Shown here piece after piece: positions 41,804-52,589 of a stretch of DNA of 64,000 nt; position 1 is the first letter of the stretch, and every line of letters begins with the position of its first letter. The notes under the pieces are model-generated. The model searched no databases and had not been told where the DNA came from. It saw nothing but the letters and a program-made list of their open reading frames with translations. The translations under genes and the position numbers were made by a program. Source of the stretch: an uncultured Gemmatimonadota bacterium (lineage in GTDB: Bacteria > Gemmatimonadota > Gemmatimonadetes > Gemmatimonadales > Gemmatimonadaceae); NCBI GenBank assembly GCA_902825965.1, contig CADEDA010000004.1, positions 109,498 to 173,497 of the forward strand. The letters are read 5' to 3'.

Positions 41804-44458
41804 ATGGGATGGCTGAAGCGTTGGCGCACGCGACTCGCCCCTGTCGCCCGCCCCGAGCACACGGATGCCGAACTCGCGGAGGAGATCGCGTTCCACCTCG
41901 AGCAGGAGACCGCGAAGTTCATCCGCGCCGGCCTCGCACCGGACGAGGCCGCTCGTCGAGCGCGCATGGCGTTCGGCACGGTGGACCGATTCCGTGGCGA
42001 GGTACACGACGCGCGGACGCTGGCCTGGCTCGCCACGCTGGGCCGTGACCTGCGCTACGCCGTCCGTGGCATGGGACACCGCCCCGGCTTCGTGCTCGCC
42101 ATCCTGCTCACCCTGGCGCTCAGCATCGGCGCCAGCGTGGCGATGTTCGCCACGAGCCGCGCGCTCTTCTTCCAGCCGCTGCCGTTCGCGCAGGCCGAGC
42201 GGCTGCACATGCTGTATGAGACCAACCCCGAGTTCGGATGGACGGACGCACAAGCGGCCCCTGCGAACGTGCTGGACTGGCGCGAGCGGGTGCGGGCGTT
42301 CGAGGACGTCGGGGCGTACCTCGAGTTCGAGAACCGCGCGACCTACGTGCAGGACGGGGAGCCGCACCTGCTCAAGGTTGCCGCGGTCACCGGCAACTTC
42401 TTCGACATCCTTGGTGCGCGACCGCTGCTCGGGCGCGGCTTCCGCTGGGAGGAGACCTGGCGCGGCGCCAGCAACGTCGCCGTGCTCAGTCATGCGCGCT
42501 GGACCGCCACCTTCGCGTCGGACACCGCGATCATCGGACGTTCGGTGCGCTTCGGCGACACCATGGTCGAGATCGTCGGGGTGATGCCACGCGGCTTCGC
42601 GTTCCCGTTCGGCGGCACCGATCTCTGGATGCCCATGGGCTGGGCGGCCGAGGACCGCGCGCAGGTCTGGTTCCGGCGTGCGCACTTCGTGCGTCCCATC
42701 GCGAAGCTCGCCGCCGGGATCACGGCGGCGCAGGCGGATGCAGCGTTCCAGGTGGAGGTCGCGCGACTGCGGCAGGAGTTCCCCGAGACCAATCGCGTGA
42801 TGGGCGCCGGGATGATGCCCCTCCGCGGCTTCCTGGTGCGCACGCTGCGCACGCCCGTGCTCATCCTCGCCGGTGCGGTGGCGGTGCTGCTGCTCCTCGC
42901 CTGCGCCAACGTCGCGAACCTTGCCCTGCTGCGGGCGCTGGGCCGCCAGCACGAGATCGCGCTGCGCAGCGCACTCGGCGCCGGTCGCGCGCGGATCGTG
43001 TCGATGCTGCTGATCGAGCATGCGGTGCTCGCACTGCTCGGCGCCGCCCTGGGGGTCGCCGTCGCTTGGGTCGCCCTCCGGCTGCTTGGCTTCAGCGAGT
43101 TCGGCGTTCCCGCCGCGACGGCAGTTGCGTTCGACTCGCGTGTGGGGCTGTTCGCCCTCGTCGCGGCCGTGGGCTGTGCGCTGAGCTTCAGCGCGGCGCC
43201 GGTGCTGCTCGCGCTCCGCCAGGGGCGTGACGCGCAGTTGCAGGGCAGCGAACGCGGTGCGGCGGGCGGCAAGCGCAACGCGCGGCTCATCGGCGGACTG
43301 GTCGCGCTCGAGGTCGCGCTGGCGCTGGTATTGGTCGTCGGTGCGGGCCTCATGGCCAAGACGGCGCTGCGCCTGCGCCGCGTGGACGTGGGCTTCCGGA
43401 GCGAGCAGGTCCTCGCGGTCGAGCTCACCGTGCCGGCGTCCCGCTACCCCGCGCTGCCTCAAGTCACCGCATTCTATGATCGCCTGCTGGCCGAGCTCGA
43501 GGCGCGACCCGGCATCGTGCGCGCCGGGACCGTTGCCAACCTGCCGCTGGCGGGACCCGGATGGTCGAGCCAGTTCCGGGCCGAGGGCTGGCCCGCAGAC
43601 CGCGCCGGACTGAACATCCTGCATCGACGCGCCGACCTCGGCTACTTCGAGGCGCTCGGGACCCCACTCGTGCGCGGACGGCATCTCGCCCCGAGCGACC
43701 GCGCGGATGCGCCGCCCGCCGTCGTGATCAACGAGACCTTCGCACGTGAGTTCTTCCCCGACGAAGACCCCATCGGCCGTCGCATCGCCTACGACCGCGT
43801 GGCGACCGCGAACTCGACCTGGCGCGAGATCGTCGGCATCGTGCGCGACCAGGCGCAGGTGAGTCCGGCCGAACCGGCGCGCGCCGAGGTGTTCGAGAGC
43901 CGCGCGCAGGATGTGGGGAGGAACATGTGGGTCGTCCTCCGCACCGACCAAACCCCCATGTCCGTGCTGCCGAGCGTGCGTGAGGTATTGCGCGCCCTCG
44001 ATCCGCTGCTGCCGATTGCGACGGTGCGTACGCTCGACGAGGTACGCGCGGCGTCCATGGCGCGCGAGAACACCGTGCTCGGCCTGCTGACGGCGTTCGG
44101 CGGGCTCGCCGTGGTGCTGGCCGCAGTGGGGGTCTACGCCGTGGCCGCGCAGTCGGTGCGGCAACGGACCCGCGAGATCGGCATCCGCATCGCGCTCGGC
44201 GCCAGCTCCGGTGACGTACTCCGCCTCGTGCTCATCCGTGGCGTCGCCTTCGTCGCGCTCGGTCTCGCCGCGGGACTCGCATTGACCCTGGTCGCCACCC
44301 GGGCGCTCGACTCGCTTCTCTATGGTGTGGAGTCCACCGACACCGGCACGATCGCCGCCGTTGCGGCGCTGCTGCTCGTGGTTGGTGTCGTGGCGTGCTG
44401 GATCCCGGCGCGCTGGGCGACGCGGTTGGATCCGGTCCGGGCGCTCAAGTTGGAGTGA
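41804..44458 (+). CDS. ABC transporter permease of the ADOP (MacB/FtsX-like) type
   Basis: 884-aa inner-membrane protein. An N-terminal about 80-residue prefix (EIAFHLEQETAKFIRAGLAP) is diagnostic for the ADOP family (acidobacterial duplicated orphan permease). After the first transmembrane helix (FVLAILLTLALSIGASVAMF) come a MacB-like periplasmic core domain, an FtsX block near residues 350-470, a second periplasmic domain, and a C-terminal FtsX block (about 745-875, with VRQRTREIGIRIALGAS). No ATPase is encoded nearby, as is usual for ADOP. Its physiological substrate is unknown. A PadR regulator gene precedes it. Confidence 0.92.
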   Translation: MGWLKRWRTRLAPVARPEHTDAELAEEIAFHLEQETAKFIRAGLAPDEAARRARMAFGTVDRFRGEVHDARTLAWLATLGRDLRYAVRGMGHRPGFVLAILLTLALSIGASVAMFATSRALFFQPLPFAQAERLHMLYETNPEFGWTDAQAAPANVLDWRERVRAFEDVGAYLEFENRATYVQDGEPHLLKVAAVTGNFFDILGARPLLGRGFRWEETWRGASNVAVLSHARWTATFASDTAIIGRSVRFGDTMVEIVGVMPRGFAFPFGGTDLWMPMGWAAEDRAQVWFRRAHFVRPIAKLAAGITAAQADAAFQVEVARLRQEFPETNRVMGAGMMPLRGFLVRTLRTPVLILAGAVAVLLLLACANVANLALLRALGRQHEIALRSALGAGRARIVSMLLIEHAVLALLGAALGVAVAWVALRLLGFSEFGVPAATAVAFDSRVGLFALVAAVGCALSFSAAPVLLALRQGRDAQLQGSERGAAGGKRNARLIGGLVALEVALALVLVVGAGLMAKTALRLRRVDVGFRSEQVLAVELTVPASRYPALPQVTAFYDRLLAELEARPGIVRAGTVANLPLAGPGWSSQFRAEGWPADRAGLNILHRRADLGYFEALGTPLVRGRHLAPSDRADAPPAVVINETFAREFFPDEDPIGRRIAYDRVATANSTWREIVGIVRDQAQVSPAEPARAEVFESRAQDVGRNMWVVLRTDQTPMSVLPSVREVLRALDPLLPIATVRTLDEVRAASMARENTVLGLLTAFGGLAVVLAAVGVYAVAAQSVRQRTREIGIRIALGASSGDVLRLVLIRGVAFVALGLAAGLALTLVATRALDSLLYGVESTDTGTIAAVAALLLVVGVVACWIPARWATRLDPVRALKLE

Positions 44459-44903: not shown

Positions 44904-45482
44904 CTACACCTTCCGCAGCTTGTCGAAGAACACCTTCCGCGCCTTCACCACCTTCGGCGCCACCACGACCGCGCAGTACGGGTTCTGCGGGTTTCGCGCG
45001 AAGTAGTTGTCGTGCACCGCCTCGGCCGGCCAGAAGCGGTCGAGCGGACGCACCTCGGTCACGATGGGGTTCGACCAGTGCGCCTGCGCCGCAGCGATCG
45101 CCTCGCGCGTCGTGCGCTCCTGTGCGTCGGAATGTGTGAACACGGCCGAGCGATACTGCGGCCCGACGTCGTTCCCCTGCCGGTCCCTGGTGGTGGGGTC
45201 GTGGATGGTGAAGAAGACGTCGAGCAGCTCGCGGAAGCTGATCACCGCGGAATCGAAGCTCACCTGCACGACCTCGGCGTGCCCGGTCTGCTTGCCGCAG
45301 ACCTGCTCGTAGGTCGGATGCGCGACGTGGCCGCCGGCGTACCCGCTCTTCACCGCCTGCACGCCGCGCAGCTCGAGATACACCGCTTCGAGGCACCAGA
45401 AGCATCCACCGGCCAGTGTGGCGAGCTCGGTGGCCGCCGCCGTCCCCGCCGCCGTCCCCGCCGCCTCGGCGCGCGCGTTCAC
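44904..45482 (-). CDS. msrA: Peptide methionine (S)-S-oxide reductase MsrA
   Basis: 192-aa MsrA. The catalytic cysteine is C27 in [11 protein letters not shown], and further family motifs are [37 protein letters not shown] and [14 protein letters not shown]. It reduces the S-diastereomer of methionine sulfoxide with thioredoxin. The N-terminal 20 residues are Ala/Thr/Gly-rich and encoded by short repeats. The ATG overlaps the msrB stop by four bases, so MsrB and MsrA are translated as a coupled pair. Confidence 0.96.
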
Positions 45483-45949
45483 TTCCCCTCCGCGCGGCGA
45501 CGTGCCTGCGCCTCGAACAAGGGCACGAACCGCTCGTAGCCCTCGGCGGCCAAGCGATCGACCGGGATGAAGCGCAGCGCCGCGGAGTTGATGCAGTAGC
45601 GCATGCCCGTGGGGCCGGGCCCGTCGTCGAAGACGTGCCCGAGATGCGAGTCGGCGTTGGCCGAGCGCACCTCGACGCGCTTCATGAAGAGCGAGCGATC
45701 GACGTGTTCGGTGACGTTCTCCTGCACCACGGGCCGCGTGAACGACGGCCAGCCGGTGCCCGAGTCGAACTTGTCGAGCGAGGAGAACAACGGTTCGCCG
45801 GACACCACATCCACGTACAGTCCGGGCTCATGATGGTCCCAGAACTCGTTGCGGAACGGGGGCTCGGTGGCGCTGCACTGCGTGACCTGGTACTGCAGGG
45901 GTGAGAGCCTGGCCTCGAGGGCCGGATCGGCGGATTTCTGCTTGGACAT
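45479..45949 (-). CDS. msrB: Peptide methionine (R)-S-oxide reductase MsrB
   Basis: 156-aa MsrB. Signature motifs: [31 protein letters not shown] and the catalytic Cys in RYCINSAAL. The two CxxC zinc-binding pairs of many MsrBs are missing (the first would lie in [15 protein letters not shown]), so this is a zinc-free form. It reduces the R-diastereomer of methionine sulfoxide. It is first in the msrB-msrA operon. Confidence 0.95.
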
Positions 45950-46096: not shown

Positions 46097-46164
46097 GTTG
46101 GACCGGTTCGGACCGATTCTGGGATTTTGTTTACGTGAAACCCTGACTTTCCCCATTGCGTTGT

Positions 46165-46206
46165 AAGCAAGCATTCGCTTGCTTGTGTGCAAGCGACCAC
46201 TTGCAC
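46165..46206. promoter_or_regulatory. Two tandem 20-bp TetR-type operators
   Basis: Site 1 (46165-46184) is a perfect palindrome, AAGCAAGC-ATTC-GCTTGCTT. Site 2 (46187-46206) is GTGCAAGC-GACC-ACTTGCAC. Both fit NNGCAAGC-N4-RCTTGCNN. Their starts are 22 bp apart, about two helical turns. Site 2 ends 6 bp before the ATG at 46213. Size, symmetry and position fit operators of the TetR domain encoded immediately downstream. Confidence 0.8.
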
Positions 46207-46212
46207 TGGAAA

Positions 46213-48207
46213 ATGACCGAACCAACCCGCCAGCACCTGCTCGACGCGGCCGCGCGCGTCTATGCCGAAGTCGGATTCCGCGGCGCCACCACCCGACGCA
46301 TCGCCGAGGAGGCCGGGGTAAATGAAGTCACACTCTTCCGTCTCTTCGGCTCCAAGTCGGCGCTGATCGACGAAGCCGTCCGTGCCCGCACCAACGCGGG
46401 ACCGGCGGTGCAACTCCCCGAAGTCCCCAAGGATCCGCAAGCGGAACTCACGGCCTGGGCGCAGAACGACCACGCCTTCCTGCTGGAGTGCCGCGGCATG
46501 ATCCGAACCACCATGGCCGAAGTGAACGAGCGGCCCGAGTGCGCCCACGAGTTCGCCGATCATCCGATCGAGTCCTTCGAGCGCCTCCGCGCCTACACGG
46601 AACGACTCGCGACCTATGGGTTCATTCCCGCGTCCGCCGATACCGGCGCGGCCGCGGCGATGCTCAAGGGTTCGCTCTTCGCCGATGCCATGGGGCGCGA
46701 TGTGATGCCCTCGATGTTCCCTCCCGCAGACCAAGCTCCGGCGACCTACGTGCGACTCTTCCTCCGCTCCCTCGGCGCCGCATTGGCGCTCCTCCTCGTC
46801 GTCCTCCTGCCCGACCGCACGGCGTTCGCGCAGGGCACGCCGGCCCCGGCCGGCGCCGCCTCCACCCTGTCCCTCGCCGAGGCGCTGCGCATCGCGTCGG
46901 TGAAGAGCGAGGGCGTGACCATCGCCACCGCGGGCGTGATGCGCGCGCGTGGCCAGGTGCGGCAGGCCGATGCCCAGCGCCTCCCGCAAGTGAACGGGTC
47001 TGCGGGCTATCAGCGCGCCATCCAGAACCAGTTCCAGGCGATCACCGAACGCTTCCCCTCCGAACCCGACACGACGAGTGGTGGCGGGGAGTCGGGCGGC
47101 TTCGGTGCGATCTCGCAGATCTTCGCGGCACCCAACACGTTCACGTTCACACTCGCCGGCACGCAGAACCTCTACACGGCCGGCCGGCTCACGGCGCAGC
47201 GTCGCGGTGCGGCGGCCGGCCACGTGGCGGCGGAGCTCGGACTCACCTCGGCGCAGGCCCAGGCGACGCTCGACGCCGCGCAGGCGTACTTCGACGCCGT
47301 GGCGAGTGACCGCTTCCTGGCGATCGCCGAGAGTTCGCTCGTGCTCACGCAGCGGACGCTGGAGCAGACGCAGCTCGCCCGCGAGCTCGGTTCCGCCTCG
47401 GAGTTCGACCTGCTGCGTGCACGCGTGGCCCGCGACAACCAGCGTCCGCTGGTGATCCAGGCGCGCGGCAACCGCAACACGGCCTACCTGCGGCTCAAGC
47501 AGTTGCTCGACCTGCCGCTCGCGACCGCGCTCACGCTCACGACGCCCATCCGCGACGATGCGAACGCCGCGACCGACGCGACTGCGCCGTTGACGCTGGC
47601 CGACGAGCGGCGCCTGACGCCGGACACGAGCGTGAGCGCACGTACGACGGTGAAGCAGGCCGAGGCGCAGGTGCGGGCGCAGGAGAGTGCACTCACGGCA
47701 GCCAAGCTCGCCCGCTTGCCGTCGGTGCAGCTGAGCAGCACCTACCAGCGCTTCGCGTATCCACCGGAAGGCACGTTCCTCCCGTCGGCGCTCGACCTCT
47801 ACTTCCCCAACTGGACCGTCACGCTGGGGCTCTCCTTCCCCGTGCTCACCGGCGGGCGGATCCGTGGCGAGCGCATGGTGGCCGAGGCGAACCTCATCGA
47901 GGCCCAGCAGCGCCTGCAGCAGAGCCGCGAGGGGGCGGCGCTCGAGGCGCAGCTCGCGGTCTCGCAGCTCGAGCAGGCGCAGGCGGCGTACGCGGCGTCG
48001 GTGGGTACGGACGCGCAGGCGGAGCAGGCGTACCGCATCGCCGAGGTGCGCTTCCAGGAAGGCATCTCCACGCAGGTGGAACTGACCGAGGTGCGCGTGC
48101 AGCTCGAGCAGGCGCGGCTCCAGCGCGTGAATGCGGCGCGCGACCTCGAACTGGCGCGGATCCGTCTCGCGCTGCTGAAGGACCTCCCGCTCACCGGGGG
48201 GCGTTGA
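46213..48207 (+). CDS. TetR regulator fused in frame to TolC-family outer-membrane efflux protein
   Basis: 664-aa open frame without internal stop. Residues 1 to about 185 are a TetR/AcrR-type regulator: HTH GATTRRIAEEAGVNEVTLFR, then GSKSALIDEAVRAR, and a helical ligand/dimer domain ending ATYVRLFLRSL. This runs directly into a hydrophobic signal-like core, AALALLLVVLLP, then DRTAFAQG (about 186-206). Residues about 215-664 are a TolC-type protein with two related halves (LSLAEALRIAS onward and a YAASVGTDAQAEQAYRIAEVRF region). Internal in-frame starts that would give a separate TolC with its own signal peptide are ATG 46714 (M168) and GTG 46750 (codon 180). The upstream ATG at 46213 is preferred over a TTG at 46156 because the latter runs through the operators. 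Adaptor and pump genes follow. Confidence 0.88.
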   Translation: MTEPTRQHLLDAAARVYAEVGFRGATTRRIAEEAGVNEVTLFRLFGSKSALIDEAVRARTNAGPAVQLPEVPKDPQAELTAWAQNDHAFLLECRGMIRTTMAEVNERPECAHEFADHPIESFERLRAYTERLATYGFIPASADTGAAAAMLKGSLFADAMGRDVMPSMFPPADQAPATYVRLFLRSLGAALALLLVVLLPDRTAFAQGTPAPAGAASTLSLAEALRIASVKSEGVTIATAGVMRARGQVRQADAQRLPQVNGSAGYQRAIQNQFQAITERFPSEPDTTSGGGESGGFGAISQIFAAPNTFTFTLAGTQNLYTAGRLTAQRRGAAAGHVAAELGLTSAQAQATLDAAQAYFDAVASDRFLAIAESSLVLTQRTLEQTQLARELGSASEFDLLRARVARDNQRPLVIQARGNRNTAYLRLKQLLDLPLATALTLTTPIRDDANAATDATAPLTLADERRLTPDTSVSARTTVKQAEAQVRAQESALTAAKLARLPSVQLSSTYQRFAYPPEGTFLPSALDLYFPNWTVTLGLSFPVLTGGRIRGERMVAEANLIEAQQRLQQSREGAALEAQLAVSQLEQAQAAYAASVGTDAQAEQAYRIAEVRFQEGISTQVELTEVRVQLEQARLQRVNAARDLELARIRLALLKDLPLTGGR

Positions 48208-48246: not shown

Positions 48247-49374
48247 ATGTCCCGTACGTTCCGCGCCGTCGCCGCCACCGCGGCGGGCGCCCTCTCGCTC
48301 ACGCTCGCCGCCTGCGGCGGCGGCGCCGAGGCGTCCACCGACGCGCCGGCGGCCCCGGTCACGGTGCAGATCGGTCCGGAGGCGATCGCGATCGCGTCGC
48401 GGACGGTGCTCTCGACGGGACCGATCCTCTCGGGCTCGCTCGTCGCCGAGCGTACGGCGCAGATCCGCGCCGAGGTGCCGGGCTCGGTGGTGCAGGTCTT
48501 CCACGATCCGGGCGCCCGGGTCGCCGAGGGCACGTCGCTCGCCAAGATCGACGACCGCGCGATCAACGACGCGTTCCTCTCGGCCAAGTCCGGGTTGACC
48601 GCGGCGCAGAACGGCGCCGACATCGCGGCGCGCGAACTCGCGCGGGCCGAGAAGCTCGCCGCCGCCGGCGCGATCGCCGAGCGTGAGGTCGAGAATGCGC
48701 GGCGTGGGGACCTCACGGCGCGCACGATGCTCGACGACGCGAAGGCGCGGCTCGCCGCGGCGCAGAAGCAGCTCGACGCGACCAACGTGCTCGCGCCCTA
48801 CGCGGGCATCGTGAGCGAGCGGATGGCGAATCCCGGCGACATCGTCGCTCCGGGCTCGCCGCTCTTCACGGTGGTCGATCCCGCGACGATGCGGCTCGAG
48901 GCGGCGGTGCCGGCCGAGCAGCTGTCGCAGGTGCGCGTGGGCGCGGCGGTGCGCTTCAGCGTCACCGGCTATCCGGGCCGCACCTTCGAGGGCCGGGTGT
49001 CCAGCGTGAACCCCTCGGCCGATCCGCAGACGCGCCAGGTGCGGTTGTTCGTGCGCATCCCCAATGCCGGGAACCAGCTGGTGGCGGGACTGTTCGCCGA
49101 AGGACGGGTGGCGAGCGACTCGCGCGAGACGCTCACGGTGCCGGAACTCGCGATCGACATGCGGGGGCTCGCGCCCGTGGTGCTGCGCCTGAAGAACGGG
49201 CAGACCGAGAAGGTGGAGGTCACGCTCGGGGTGCGCGACGAACAGATGGAACGCTACGAGATCACGGCCGGCATCAGTGCGGGTGACACGCTGCTCGTGG
49301 GACCCGCGCTCGGCATCAGTCCCAACACGCCGCTCAAGGTCACCACGCCGAGCGACAGCAAGCCCAAGCAGTAG
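48247..49374 (+). CDS. RND efflux periplasmic adaptor (membrane fusion protein), lipoprotein
   Basis: 375-aa adaptor. The ATG at 48247 has GAGGAAG six bases upstream and yields a lipoprotein signal with the lipobox LAAC (ALSLTLAACGGG). An earlier ATG (48211) would add 12 residues. Domains: first beta-barrel and lipoyl half (RAEVPGSVVQVFHDPGARVAEG), a coiled-coil hairpin with many Ala/Glu/Arg residues (about 110-165), a second lipoyl half (YAGIVSERMANPGDIVAPGS), then beta-barrel and membrane-proximal domains. It links the inner-membrane pump to the TolC channel. Gene order is TetR-TolC, adaptor, pump. Confidence 0.93.
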   Translation: MSRTFRAVAATAAGALSLTLAACGGGAEASTDAPAAPVTVQIGPEAIAIASRTVLSTGPILSGSLVAERTAQIRAEVPGSVVQVFHDPGARVAEGTSLAKIDDRAINDAFLSAKSGLTAAQNGADIAARELARAEKLAAAGAIAEREVENARRGDLTARTMLDDAKARLAAAQKQLDATNVLAPYAGIVSERMANPGDIVAPGSPLFTVVDPATMRLEAAVPAEQLSQVRVGAAVRFSVTGYPGRTFEGRVSSVNPSADPQTRQVRLFVRIPNAGNQLVAGLFAEGRVASDSRETLTVPELAIDMRGLAPVVLRLKNGQTEKVEVTLGVRDEQMERYEITAGISAGDTLLVGPALGISPNTPLKVTTPSDSKPKQ

Positions 49375-49427: not shown

Positions 49428-52400
49428 ATGTATATCTCCGATTTCGCCATCAAGCGGCCGCTGATCACCATCGTCTCGATGGTGGCGCTGGTCGTCTTCG
49501 GCCTCTTCGCGCTGTGGCAACTCGAGACCGACGAGTTCCCCGACGTGCAGCAGCCGATCATCAACGTCGCGATCCCGTACCCCGGCGCCTCGCCGGACGT
49601 CGTGGAACGCGAGGTGCTCGACCGCGTCGAGGAGGCCGTGAGCGGCATCTCCGGCGTGGACCGCATCATGGGCGCGGCCCAGGACGGCTTCGCCAACGTC
49701 ACGGTCTTCTTCGTGTTCGAGAAGGACCTGCAGCAGGCCTCGCAGGACATCCGCGACAAGATCAGCGGCATCCGCTCGGACCTGCCGGCGGAGATGAAGG
49801 AGCCGATCCTGACGCGCTTCGATCCGGCGGACCAGCCGATCGTCCAGCTCTCGCTGAACTCGAGCACGCTGGACGCACCGGCGCTCACGCGGATCGCCGA
49901 TCCCGGCCTCACGCGGGTGCTGCGCGCGATCCCGGGCGTGGCCGAGGCGGTGGTCGTGGGCGGCGTGGAACGTGAACTCACGGTCGAGATCCGTCCGCAG
50001 GCGATGGAAGCGGCCGGCGTCACGGTCGGTGAGGTGGTGGGTGCGCTGCAGGCGCAGAACCTCGCGGTGCCGGTGGGCCGCATCAACGGACCGATCGACG
50101 AACGCGCGATCCGCCTGAAGGGAAAGCTCGAGCGGCCGGAGGACTTCCTGCGGCTGGTGGTGGCGCAGCGTGGTGGCCGTGCCATCCGCCTGGGCGAGAT
50201 CGCCACGGCGCGCGACGGCACCGCCGAGCAGCGCACGGCGGCGATCTACGACGGCAAGGACGCCGTCGGCATCATGATCAAGAAGGCGAAGGGCTACTCG
50301 ACGACGGACGTCGCGGAGAAGGTGCTCGCGGAGGTGGAGCGGATCCGTCCGACGCTCCCGCCGGGCACGACGGTCGACGTCATCCAGGACCGCGGCGAGC
50401 GCGTGACGGCCTCGGTCGCGAACGTGCAGAGCGCTCTCATCGAGGGCGCGCTGCTCACCGTGCTGGTGGTGTTCCTGTTCCTGAACTCCTGGCGCTCGAC
50501 GGTGATCACGGGCCTGGCGCTGCCGATCTCCGTGCTGGCGAGCTTCGTGGCGGTGTGGGCGTTCGACTTCACGCTCAATACCATGTCCCTGCTCGGCCTG
50601 TCGCTGGCGATCGGCATCCTGATCGACGACGCGATCGTGGTACGCGAGAACATCGTGCGCCACGTCGAGATGGGGAAGGACCACTTCAAGGCCGCGCACG
50701 AAGGGACGGACGAGATCGGGCTCGCGGTGGCCGCGACCACGTTCTCCATCGTCGCGGTGTTCGTGCCGATCGCGTTCATGTACGGGCTCTCCGGCCAGTG
50801 GTTCAAGCCGTTCGCCCTGACGATCGCCTGCGCGGTGCTCGTGTCGCTGTTCGTCTCGTTCTCGCTCGACCCGATGCTCTCGGCGTACTGGCCGGACCCG
50901 GAGCTCGAGTCGCACGAGCACCGGAGTTGGATCTCGCGCCAGCTCGTGACGTTCAACAAGTGGTTCGACCGTCAGGCCGAGCGCTACACGAAGGTCATCG
51001 GCTGGGCGCTGGACCACCGGCTCGCGATGGTGCTGCTCGCGACGGCCAGCATGGTCGGTGCGCTCTACCTGCAGGCGAACTTCGGGGGATTCGGCTTCGT
51101 CCCGGTGACGGACAACTCGGAGTTCATCATCCAGGTCGAGACACCGCCGGGCTCGAACCTCGAGTACACGCGGCTCAAGGCGGAGGAGGCCGCGCGGCTC
51201 GCGCGGGCGCATCCCGAGGTGAAGTACACCTTCACCACCATCGGCGCCGGCGGCGGCATGGATCCGTCCGAGGCGCTCGGGGCGGTGGACATCGCGAGCG
51301 TGTACGTGCGCATGACGCCGAAGGCCGACCGCAGCATCTCGCAGGACGCCTTCGGTGCCGTGCTGCGTGAGGAGGTCAAGCAGATCGGCGGCGCGACCGT
51401 GGCCGTGTACACCAATGGCTTCGGCGGCGCGATCAAGCAGGTGCAGTACGAACTCCGCGGCAACGACGCGCAGCAGTTGCAGGCGGCGGCGGACACCGTG
51501 ATGGGCGTGCTCAAGCGGATCCCGGGCGCGGTGGACGTCTCGTTGTCCACCAAGGGACAGAAGCCGGAGCTCGAGATCCAGTTGAACCGCGCACTCGCCG
51601 GCTCGCTCGGCATCAGCGTGGGCGAGATCGCGCAGTCGCTGCGGCCAGCCTTCGCCGGCGTGGATGCGGGCGACTGGGTGGACCCGGCAGGCGAGAACCG
51701 GAAGGTGCGGGTGCGGCTGGCCCCCGAGTCGCGCACGCGGGTGGCCGACATCGAGCGCCTCCCCATCGCGGTGCGCGGGCCGAACGGTGGCGTGCGGATG
51801 ATGCCACTCGGCCAGATCGCCACGGTCTCGCAGGGCCTGGGACCGGCGAAGATCTCGCACCTCGATCGCGACAACGTGATCGTGGTGCAGGCCAACCTCG
51901 CCAGCGGGCACTCGCTCGGCGAGGTCACGGGCGCGCTGGTGGCCGAGGTGGCCAAGCTGAAGCTGCCGGCCGGTGTGACCACCGGCTTCGGTGGCGAGGC
52001 GAAGGACCAGGCGCAGGTGTTCGGGGACATCCTCGCGGCACTGGGCATCGCGCTGATGCTGATGTACCTGATCCTCGTGATGCAGTTCGGCTCGTTCCTC
52101 GAGCCGATCGCCATCCTGATCTCGTTGCCGCTGTCGCTGATCGGCGTGGTGCTGGCGCTGCTCATCACGGGGGACACGTTGAACATCATGTCGATGATCG
52201 GCGTGATCCTGCTGATGGGCATCGTGGCCAAGAACGCCATCCTCCTGATCGACTTCGCCAAGTGGGGCCAGGAGCAGGGGCAGGAGCGGCGGGCGGCGAT
52301 CATCGAAGCCGGACGCGTGCGCCTGCGGCCGATCCTCATGACCACGCTGGCGCTGATCGCAGGCATGATCCCCGTGGCGCTCGGCATCGGTGAAGGCGCC

Positions 52401-52589
52401 GACTTCCGTGCTCCGCTGGGTCGCGCGATCATCGGCGGCACCATCACGTCCACCTTCCTCACGCTGCTCGTGATCCCGACGGTCTACGAGATCATGGACG
52501 ATTGGCGGCGCTTCGTCGGGTCGTTCTTCAAGTTCCCGGAACGCCCGAAGACCGAGGAGTACGCGGTGCCGACGACGCGGTCGCACTGA
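49428..52589 (+). CDS. RND family multidrug efflux pump, inner-membrane permease
   Basis: 1053-aa AcrB-type permease. The N-terminus YISDFAIKRPLITIVSMVAL is characteristic of RND pumps. Twelve transmembrane helices flank two large periplasmic loops. The fourth helix carries the proton-relay acids in GLSLAIGILIDDAIVVREN, and the tenth to twelfth helices contain GVILLMGIVAKNAILLIDF. It exports lipophilic compounds using the proton gradient; substrates are not predictable. It is the last gene of the operon, its stop lies inside a 12-bp tandem repeat, and a strong terminator follows. Confidence 0.95.
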   Translation: MYISDFAIKRPLITIVSMVALVVFGLFALWQLETDEFPDVQQPIINVAIPYPGASPDVVEREVLDRVEEAVSGISGVDRIMGAAQDGFANVTVFFVFEKDLQQASQDIRDKISGIRSDLPAEMKEPILTRFDPADQPIVQLSLNSSTLDAPALTRIADPGLTRVLRAIPGVAEAVVVGGVERELTVEIRPQAMEAAGVTVGEVVGALQAQNLAVPVGRINGPIDERAIRLKGKLERPEDFLRLVVAQRGGRAIRLGEIATARDGTAEQRTAAIYDGKDAVGIMIKKAKGYSTTDVAEKVLAEVERIRPTLPPGTTVDVIQDRGERVTASVANVQSALIEGALLTVLVVFLFLNSWRSTVITGLALPISVLASFVAVWAFDFTLNTMSLLGLSLAIGILIDDAIVVRENIVRHVEMGKDHFKAAHEGTDEIGLAVAATTFSIVAVFVPIAFMYGLSGQWFKPFALTIACAVLVSLFVSFSLDPMLSAYWPDPELESHEHRSWISRQLVTFNKWFDRQAERYTKVIGWALDHRLAMVLLATASMVGALYLQANFGGFGFVPVTDNSEFIIQVETPPGSNLEYTRLKAEEAARLARAHPEVKYTFTTIGAGGGMDPSEALGAVDIASVYVRMTPKADRSISQDAFGAVLREEVKQIGGATVAVYTNGFGGAIKQVQYELRGNDAQQLQAAADTVMGVLKRIPGAVDVSLSTKGQKPELEIQLNRALAGSLGISVGEIAQSLRPAFAGVDAGDWVDPAGENRKVRVRLAPESRTRVADIERLPIAVRGPNGGVRMMPLGQIATVSQGLGPAKISHLDRDNVIVVQANLASGHSLGEVTGALVAEVAKLKLPAGVTTGFGGEAKDQAQVFGDILAALGIALMLMYLILVMQFGSFLEPIAILISLPLSLIGVVLALLITGDTLNIMSMIGVILLMGIVAKNAILLIDFAKWGQEQGQERRAAIIEAGRVRLRPILMTTLALIAGMIPVALGIGEGADFRAPLGRAIIGGTITSTFLTLLVIPTVYEIMDDWRRFVGSFFKFPERPKTEEYAVPTTRSH

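Follow-up and report, generated by a model that had tools for sequence, protein, structure and literature searches.

Cytoplasmic repressors and outer-membrane ducts work in different compartments of the cell, and they are normally made as separate proteins. Membrane-tethered one-component regulators, such as ToxR and CadC, join a winged helix to an exported sensor that stays attached, whereas in FbcH of Bradyrhizobium a polyprotein of cytochromes b and c1 is separated at an internal signal peptide. With regard to signal peptides themselves, RseP of E. coli eliminates them, and it also releases a cytoplasmic fragment of FecR (PMC8144685). The local TetR repressors of RND pumps, in turn, are usually encoded divergently from the pump operon (PMC8277102).

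The locus described here, in which a TetR repressor and a TolC-family duct share one reading frame, has something in common with each of these systems. First, it shares with repressors of the AcrR, MexL and NalC type the TetR fold and a palindromic operator at an efflux operon, but those repressors are separate soluble proteins. Second, its predicted layout recalls ToxR and CadC, with DNA binding assigned to a cytoplasmic N-terminus, a single membrane helix after it and a C-terminal part that is exported; however, the DNA-binding domain is TetR rather than winged helix, and the exported part is a duct that would have to be cut off. Third, it would be like FbcH in that two proteins are made as one chain and come apart at an internal signal peptide, although both FbcH products are respiratory enzyme subunits and neither is a regulator. 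Fourth, FecR crosses the membrane once and, when RseP has cut it, influences transcription through its N-terminal, cytoplasmic part (PMC8144685), as the TetR part might do; but FecR is a sigma regulator with an outside trigger, while in the fusion release would be set off by routine removal of the signal peptide, and a role for RseP is conjecture. Our literature search for a TetR-TolC fusion found no paper describing one, an absence that is not proof that none exists.

The fused gene and its internal signal-like segment

The window analysed, a stretch of 64,000 nucleotides from an uncultured member of the Gemmatimonadaceae, belongs to an assembly of 4.07 Mb, whose closest named relatives are Gemmatimonadaceae metagenome assemblies. 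It contains a genuine TetR-TolC fusion gene, which heads an RND efflux operon with the following features.

46137..46162, + strand: promoter-like GAAAC-N17-CGTT of ECF sigma-type look (pattern class found in orthologous operons)
46165..46184: operator 1, inverted repeat AAGCAAGC-ATTC-GCTTGCTT (sequence; scans of orthologues and of the genome)
46187..46206: operator 2, inverted repeat GTGCAAG-CGACCA-CTTGCAC, 6 nt before the start codon (evidence as for operator 1)
46213..48207, + strand: fused TetR-TolC open reading frame, 664 aa (translation, Pfam, junction common to 21 genomes)
46213..46776, + strand: TetR repressor module, residues 1-188 (PF00440; weak Foldseek matches)
46777..46830, + strand: internal signal-peptide-like segment AALALLLVVLLPDRTAFA, residues 189-206, with a candidate site between A206 and Q207 (hydrophobicity; conservation of A and Q)
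46831..48204, + strand: TolC-family outer-membrane duct, residues 207-664 (PF02321; Foldseek)
48247..49374, + strand: RND periplasmic adaptor (TIGR01730; HlyD_D23), alternative start ATG 48211
49428..52589, + strand: RND pump (ACR_tran, AcrB/AcrD/AcrF family)

A preliminary description of this DNA had read a TetR/AcrR regulator running without a stop into a full-length TolC-family protein, with a hydrophobic, signal-like stretch between them and adaptor and RND pump genes downstream, and all of this is borne out. Translation gives a single open frame over 46213-48207, and Pfam recognizes both partners: TetR_N (PF00440) at residues 9-55, above its curated cut-off (E 3.7e-15), and OEP (PF02321), the TolC-family domain, in two stretches of the C-terminal part (E 1.3e-45). 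The TetR_N match corresponds to the helix-turn-helix, and the last helix of the repressor module, YVRLFLRSLG, spans residues 179-188. In Foldseek comparisons the duct part found TolC, OprM, CusC and CmeC as its best matches (best E 6.9e-13), and the repressor part found MexL and NalC weakly. We also modelled the fusion with AlphaFold from seven fused proteins, and with a mean pLDDT of 66 the quality is modest. The model has a helical portion resembling TetR and another portion resembling TolC, and it is unsure at the junction, where pLDDT is below 50 for residues 175-215. The N-terminal helix-turn-helix expected of the TetR family is thus present, as are the two OEP repeats and the fold expected of an outer membrane factor. 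What is absent is the usual N-terminal cleavable signal peptide on a separate TolC precursor; the signal-like segment is instead internal, placed after the 188-residue TetR module.

This segment stands out from its surroundings. Its 11-residue core has a mean Kyte-Doolittle hydrophobicity of 3.33, against at most 1.31 in the TetR core, and a core of the same length occurs at every fused locus, with means of 2.2-3.3 against at most 1.9 in the respective TetR cores. Alanine at -1 and glutamine at +1 of the predicted site are present in all fused loci, each of which has one frame across the junction and a site-like motif between the modules, where a polyprotein would be split. As no cysteine occurs at the predicted cleavage site, the enzyme is likely to be signal peptidase I; two genes for it are present in the genome, as is an RseP homologue.

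Distribution and origin of the fusion

The preliminary description had proposed looking for the junction in relatives, where it turns out to be kept. Of the 17 genomes that make up the genus here, 16 have it, one of these being a single contig and another consisting of 3 contigs, and in 14 the fusion is intact; in the one remaining genome, which is 71% complete, no orthologue was found. The other two of the 16, G142 (locus L052) and G147 (locus L034), both small at 1.8-1.9 Mb, keep the TetR-TolC junction and have a frame break further inside TolC, which may reflect either decay or an assembly error. A second genus, belonging to the same family, contributes five fused genomes, namely G021, G025, G029, G037 and, separately, G036, which brings the genomes bearing the junction to 21. 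Within our sample of the phylum, full-length matches to the fusion were found in these two genera only, and a search of plasmids gave no match covering 80% of the fused query.

Most of these genomes are probably metagenome assemblies, and this, together with the breaks within TolC in G142 and G147, would be in keeping with a fault of sequencing or assembly by which a stop was lost or the frame displaced. We consider such an error hardly conceivable. Against it stand the 16 genomes of the genus with the same junction, a single-contig genome among them, and the junction itself, which in this genus has ten different lengths of 36-50 aa, that is, at least nine length changes, all of them multiples of three. 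Assembly error is ruled out as the source of the fusion by these genomes and in-frame length variants and, since the junction is found in 21 genomes, a frame open by chance and a sequencing error both fail to explain it.

We examined 47 further loci with both genes, and in these the orthologous TetR is encoded by its own gene directly upstream of tolC. These unfused tetR-tolC operons of the Gemmatimonadaceae have the same gene order and the same kind of operator, and their repressors and ducts are about 35-57% and 44-58% identical, respectively, to those of the window; they differ in having two genes, mostly overlapping by 1-4 nt, and a tolC with its own start. In 32 of the 47, tolC has a possible start codon whose position relative to the tetR stop is -4 or -1, which is the arrangement expected with translational coupling. 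Therefore, tolC may use termination-reinitiation in the unfused operons, a dependence that may have been lost in the fused genes. Five unfused loci (L035, L044, L047, L049 and L051) have tetR and tolC in the same frame with only a stop codon between them, and these are possible half-way states.

To follow the joining of the two genes we used a tree built from the TetR and TolC parts, with the junction excluded. In this tree the fused genes of the two genera are apart, with unfused relatives in between. A single origin of all fusions was rejected, as an AU test constraining all 19 intact fused genes to one clade gave a p of 1.2e-6; joining therefore happened at least twice. A one-clade constraint on the five fused genes from the second genus alone was not rejected (p 0.17), although the gene of G036 falls among unfused ones in the tree and its linker is different, which suggests a third joining event. 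Thus, as read from this tree and the linkers, tetR and tolC were joined at least twice in the family, and perhaps three times. Counts of changes alone do not separate gain of the fusion from its loss; a split back into two genes, however, would need to recreate a stop codon, a start codon and a fresh n-region.

The two genera have unlike junctions as well. In members of the first, both the TetR tail and the tolC n-region are gone, and YVRLFLRSLGA, the final helix of TetR, abuts the hydrophobic core directly; in the second, a basic TetR tail (e.g. GSGRRRALMAG) precedes the core. The ancestral layout was likely tetR followed directly by tolC, the start of the latter usually overlapping the stop of the former. 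Where the genes overlap in this way, a minor indel or deletion suffices to join the frames, and events of this kind would have fused the two genes on at least two occasions. The case would thereby illustrate how translationally coupled, overlapping genes can slide into fusion.

Internal starts and the predicted fate of one chain

How a repressor and a duct are obtained from such a gene was left by the preliminary description to several possibilities, among them nested products from internal starts at ATG 46714 and GTG 46750. In this case TetR, or TetR-TolC, would be made from 46213 and a separate TolC precursor from GTG 46750, ATG 46714 or ATG 46705, the fused frame being no more than a stop-free overlap of two genes. 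A precursor begun at GTG 46750 would carry a nearly perfect signal peptide (MRLFLRSLGAALALLLVVLL leading to AFA/Q), and this codon is retained in 13 of 16 genomes of the genus, but it is lost in G138, G144 and G149 (GTC in two, GTT in one). The same valine codon, number 180, is GTG in 18 of 34 unfused genes, and the excess in the fused ones, being weak and not independent, was rejected as a start signal. ATG 46714 is replaced by TCT (Ser) in G139. As for ATG 46705, its Shine-Dalgarno match in the window is modest (-4.7 kcal/mol), but this match is gone in several genus-mates, and matches at the candidate codons are inconstant; the residue encoded by 46705, M165, does not vary within the genus and might act as a weak start, yet it belongs to a TetR motif (RDxMP) and is also found in most unfused TetRs, where tolC starts elsewhere.

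Several unfused tolC starts likewise have no Shine-Dalgarno match, so that a missing match does not exclude internal starts. However, G036 has no ATG, GTG or TTG from Met165 to the end of the signal, and in G037 the start codons near the signal lie only inside the hydrophobic core. Moreover, synonymous variation around the candidates is not clearly suppressed (pS 0.39-0.67, within the range seen elsewhere in the gene), and hence the fused gene gave no clear signal of a hidden start. We therefore rejected 46714 and 46750 as a conserved mechanism, since these codons are not conserved among genomes of the genus. A second, internal start appears disfavoured, and nested genes are in our judgement unlikely. 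The coupling of repressor and duct through fusion, which the preliminary description had put forward, stands with 21 genomes of two genera behind it, unlike the nested starts.

The reading that fits best is a polyprotein split by signal peptidase, with the repressor attached to the membrane at least at first, and we hold it probable, from the sequence features at hand, that one polypeptide with a cytoplasmic TetR is cut by signal peptidase I to free TolC, and that TetR represses its own operon. In this scheme the gene would yield a single chain, whose TetR module would fold in the cytoplasm and whose last TetR helix (first genus) or basic TetR tail (second genus) would serve as the n-region of the internal signal. 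The Sec machinery would then carry the TolC part through the membrane, whereupon a cut by signal peptidase I after A206 would allow TolC to reach the outer membrane and leave TetR held in the inner membrane, at least initially, by a hydrophobic C-terminal tail. RseP, a site-2 protease, may later release TetR, which would bind the two operators at the start of its own operon and repress it. Repressor and duct would thus be produced 1:1. TetR proteins act as dimers and TolC as trimers, and therefore an uncut fusion would be awkward.

It is tempting to go further and speculate that the repressor senses the export of its own duct, tethered TetR being freed or removed only after TolC has been exported and cleaved, a proposal that we regard as doubtful. 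If true, the state of export or of outer-membrane assembly would set the expression of the efflux operon, and the repeated joining of tetR and tolC would reflect selection for such coupling. In any case, a conserved and repeatedly evolved gene for both proteins implies that the cell has to send one half of a chain out and yet keep the other on DNA. This would provide a natural system for the handling by Sec of a long folded N-terminal domain, the fate of a signal peptide that carries a regulator, and regulation tied to export.

Operators, promoter and neighbouring genes

TetR repressors typically bind DNA as dimers and let go of it on meeting a ligand. The palindromic operator that they have at the promoters they regulate is present here as the two inverted repeats before the start codon. 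A site of the GCAAGnnnnnnCTTGC type occurs upstream of 66 of 66 orthologous loci, fused or unfused, where shuffled sequences would lead to expect 0.2 loci with at least one, and two or more such sites occur in 48 of the 66. In the genome as a whole, the strict operator pattern is found at this locus only. Given operators before all 66 loci and a motif found nowhere else in the genome, the repressor domain probably still works. The simplest view of these sites is of an autoregulated operon, whose repressor would have no other obvious target in the genome.

The opposite would be a TetR part that is a relic, that is, a harmless N-terminal extension tolerated during TolC export, with regulation moved elsewhere. 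Within the genus, pN/pS is 0.24 for the helix-turn-helix, 0.51 for the C-terminal, ligand domain of TetR and 0.40 for TolC; judged by these values, both modules are under purifying selection. The greater variability of the ligand domain when compared with TolC is what a relic would predict, but the helix-turn-helix is among the most conserved parts, operators persist at every fused locus, and no second close copy of this repressor was found in the genomes of the genus. Decay of the repressor into a relic is thus very unlikely, and a working autorepressor is the reading that we prefer.

Just before the first operator, the GAAAC-N17-CGTT element looks like an ECF-sigma promoter. Elements of this class lie upstream of 34 of the 66 orthologous operons, against 2.1 expected from shuffling, in most cases equally far from the first operator, and with near-fixed spacing in the fused genera and their close relatives. 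The upstream region is common to the efflux operon and to msrB and msrA, which are divergent from it (window positions 44904-45949, - strand), and this placement may hint at a link between the efflux operon and oxidative stress. Further upstream lies a large gene for a permease of the MacB-core/FtsX type (window positions 41804-44458, + strand), the same protein having no ATPase domain.
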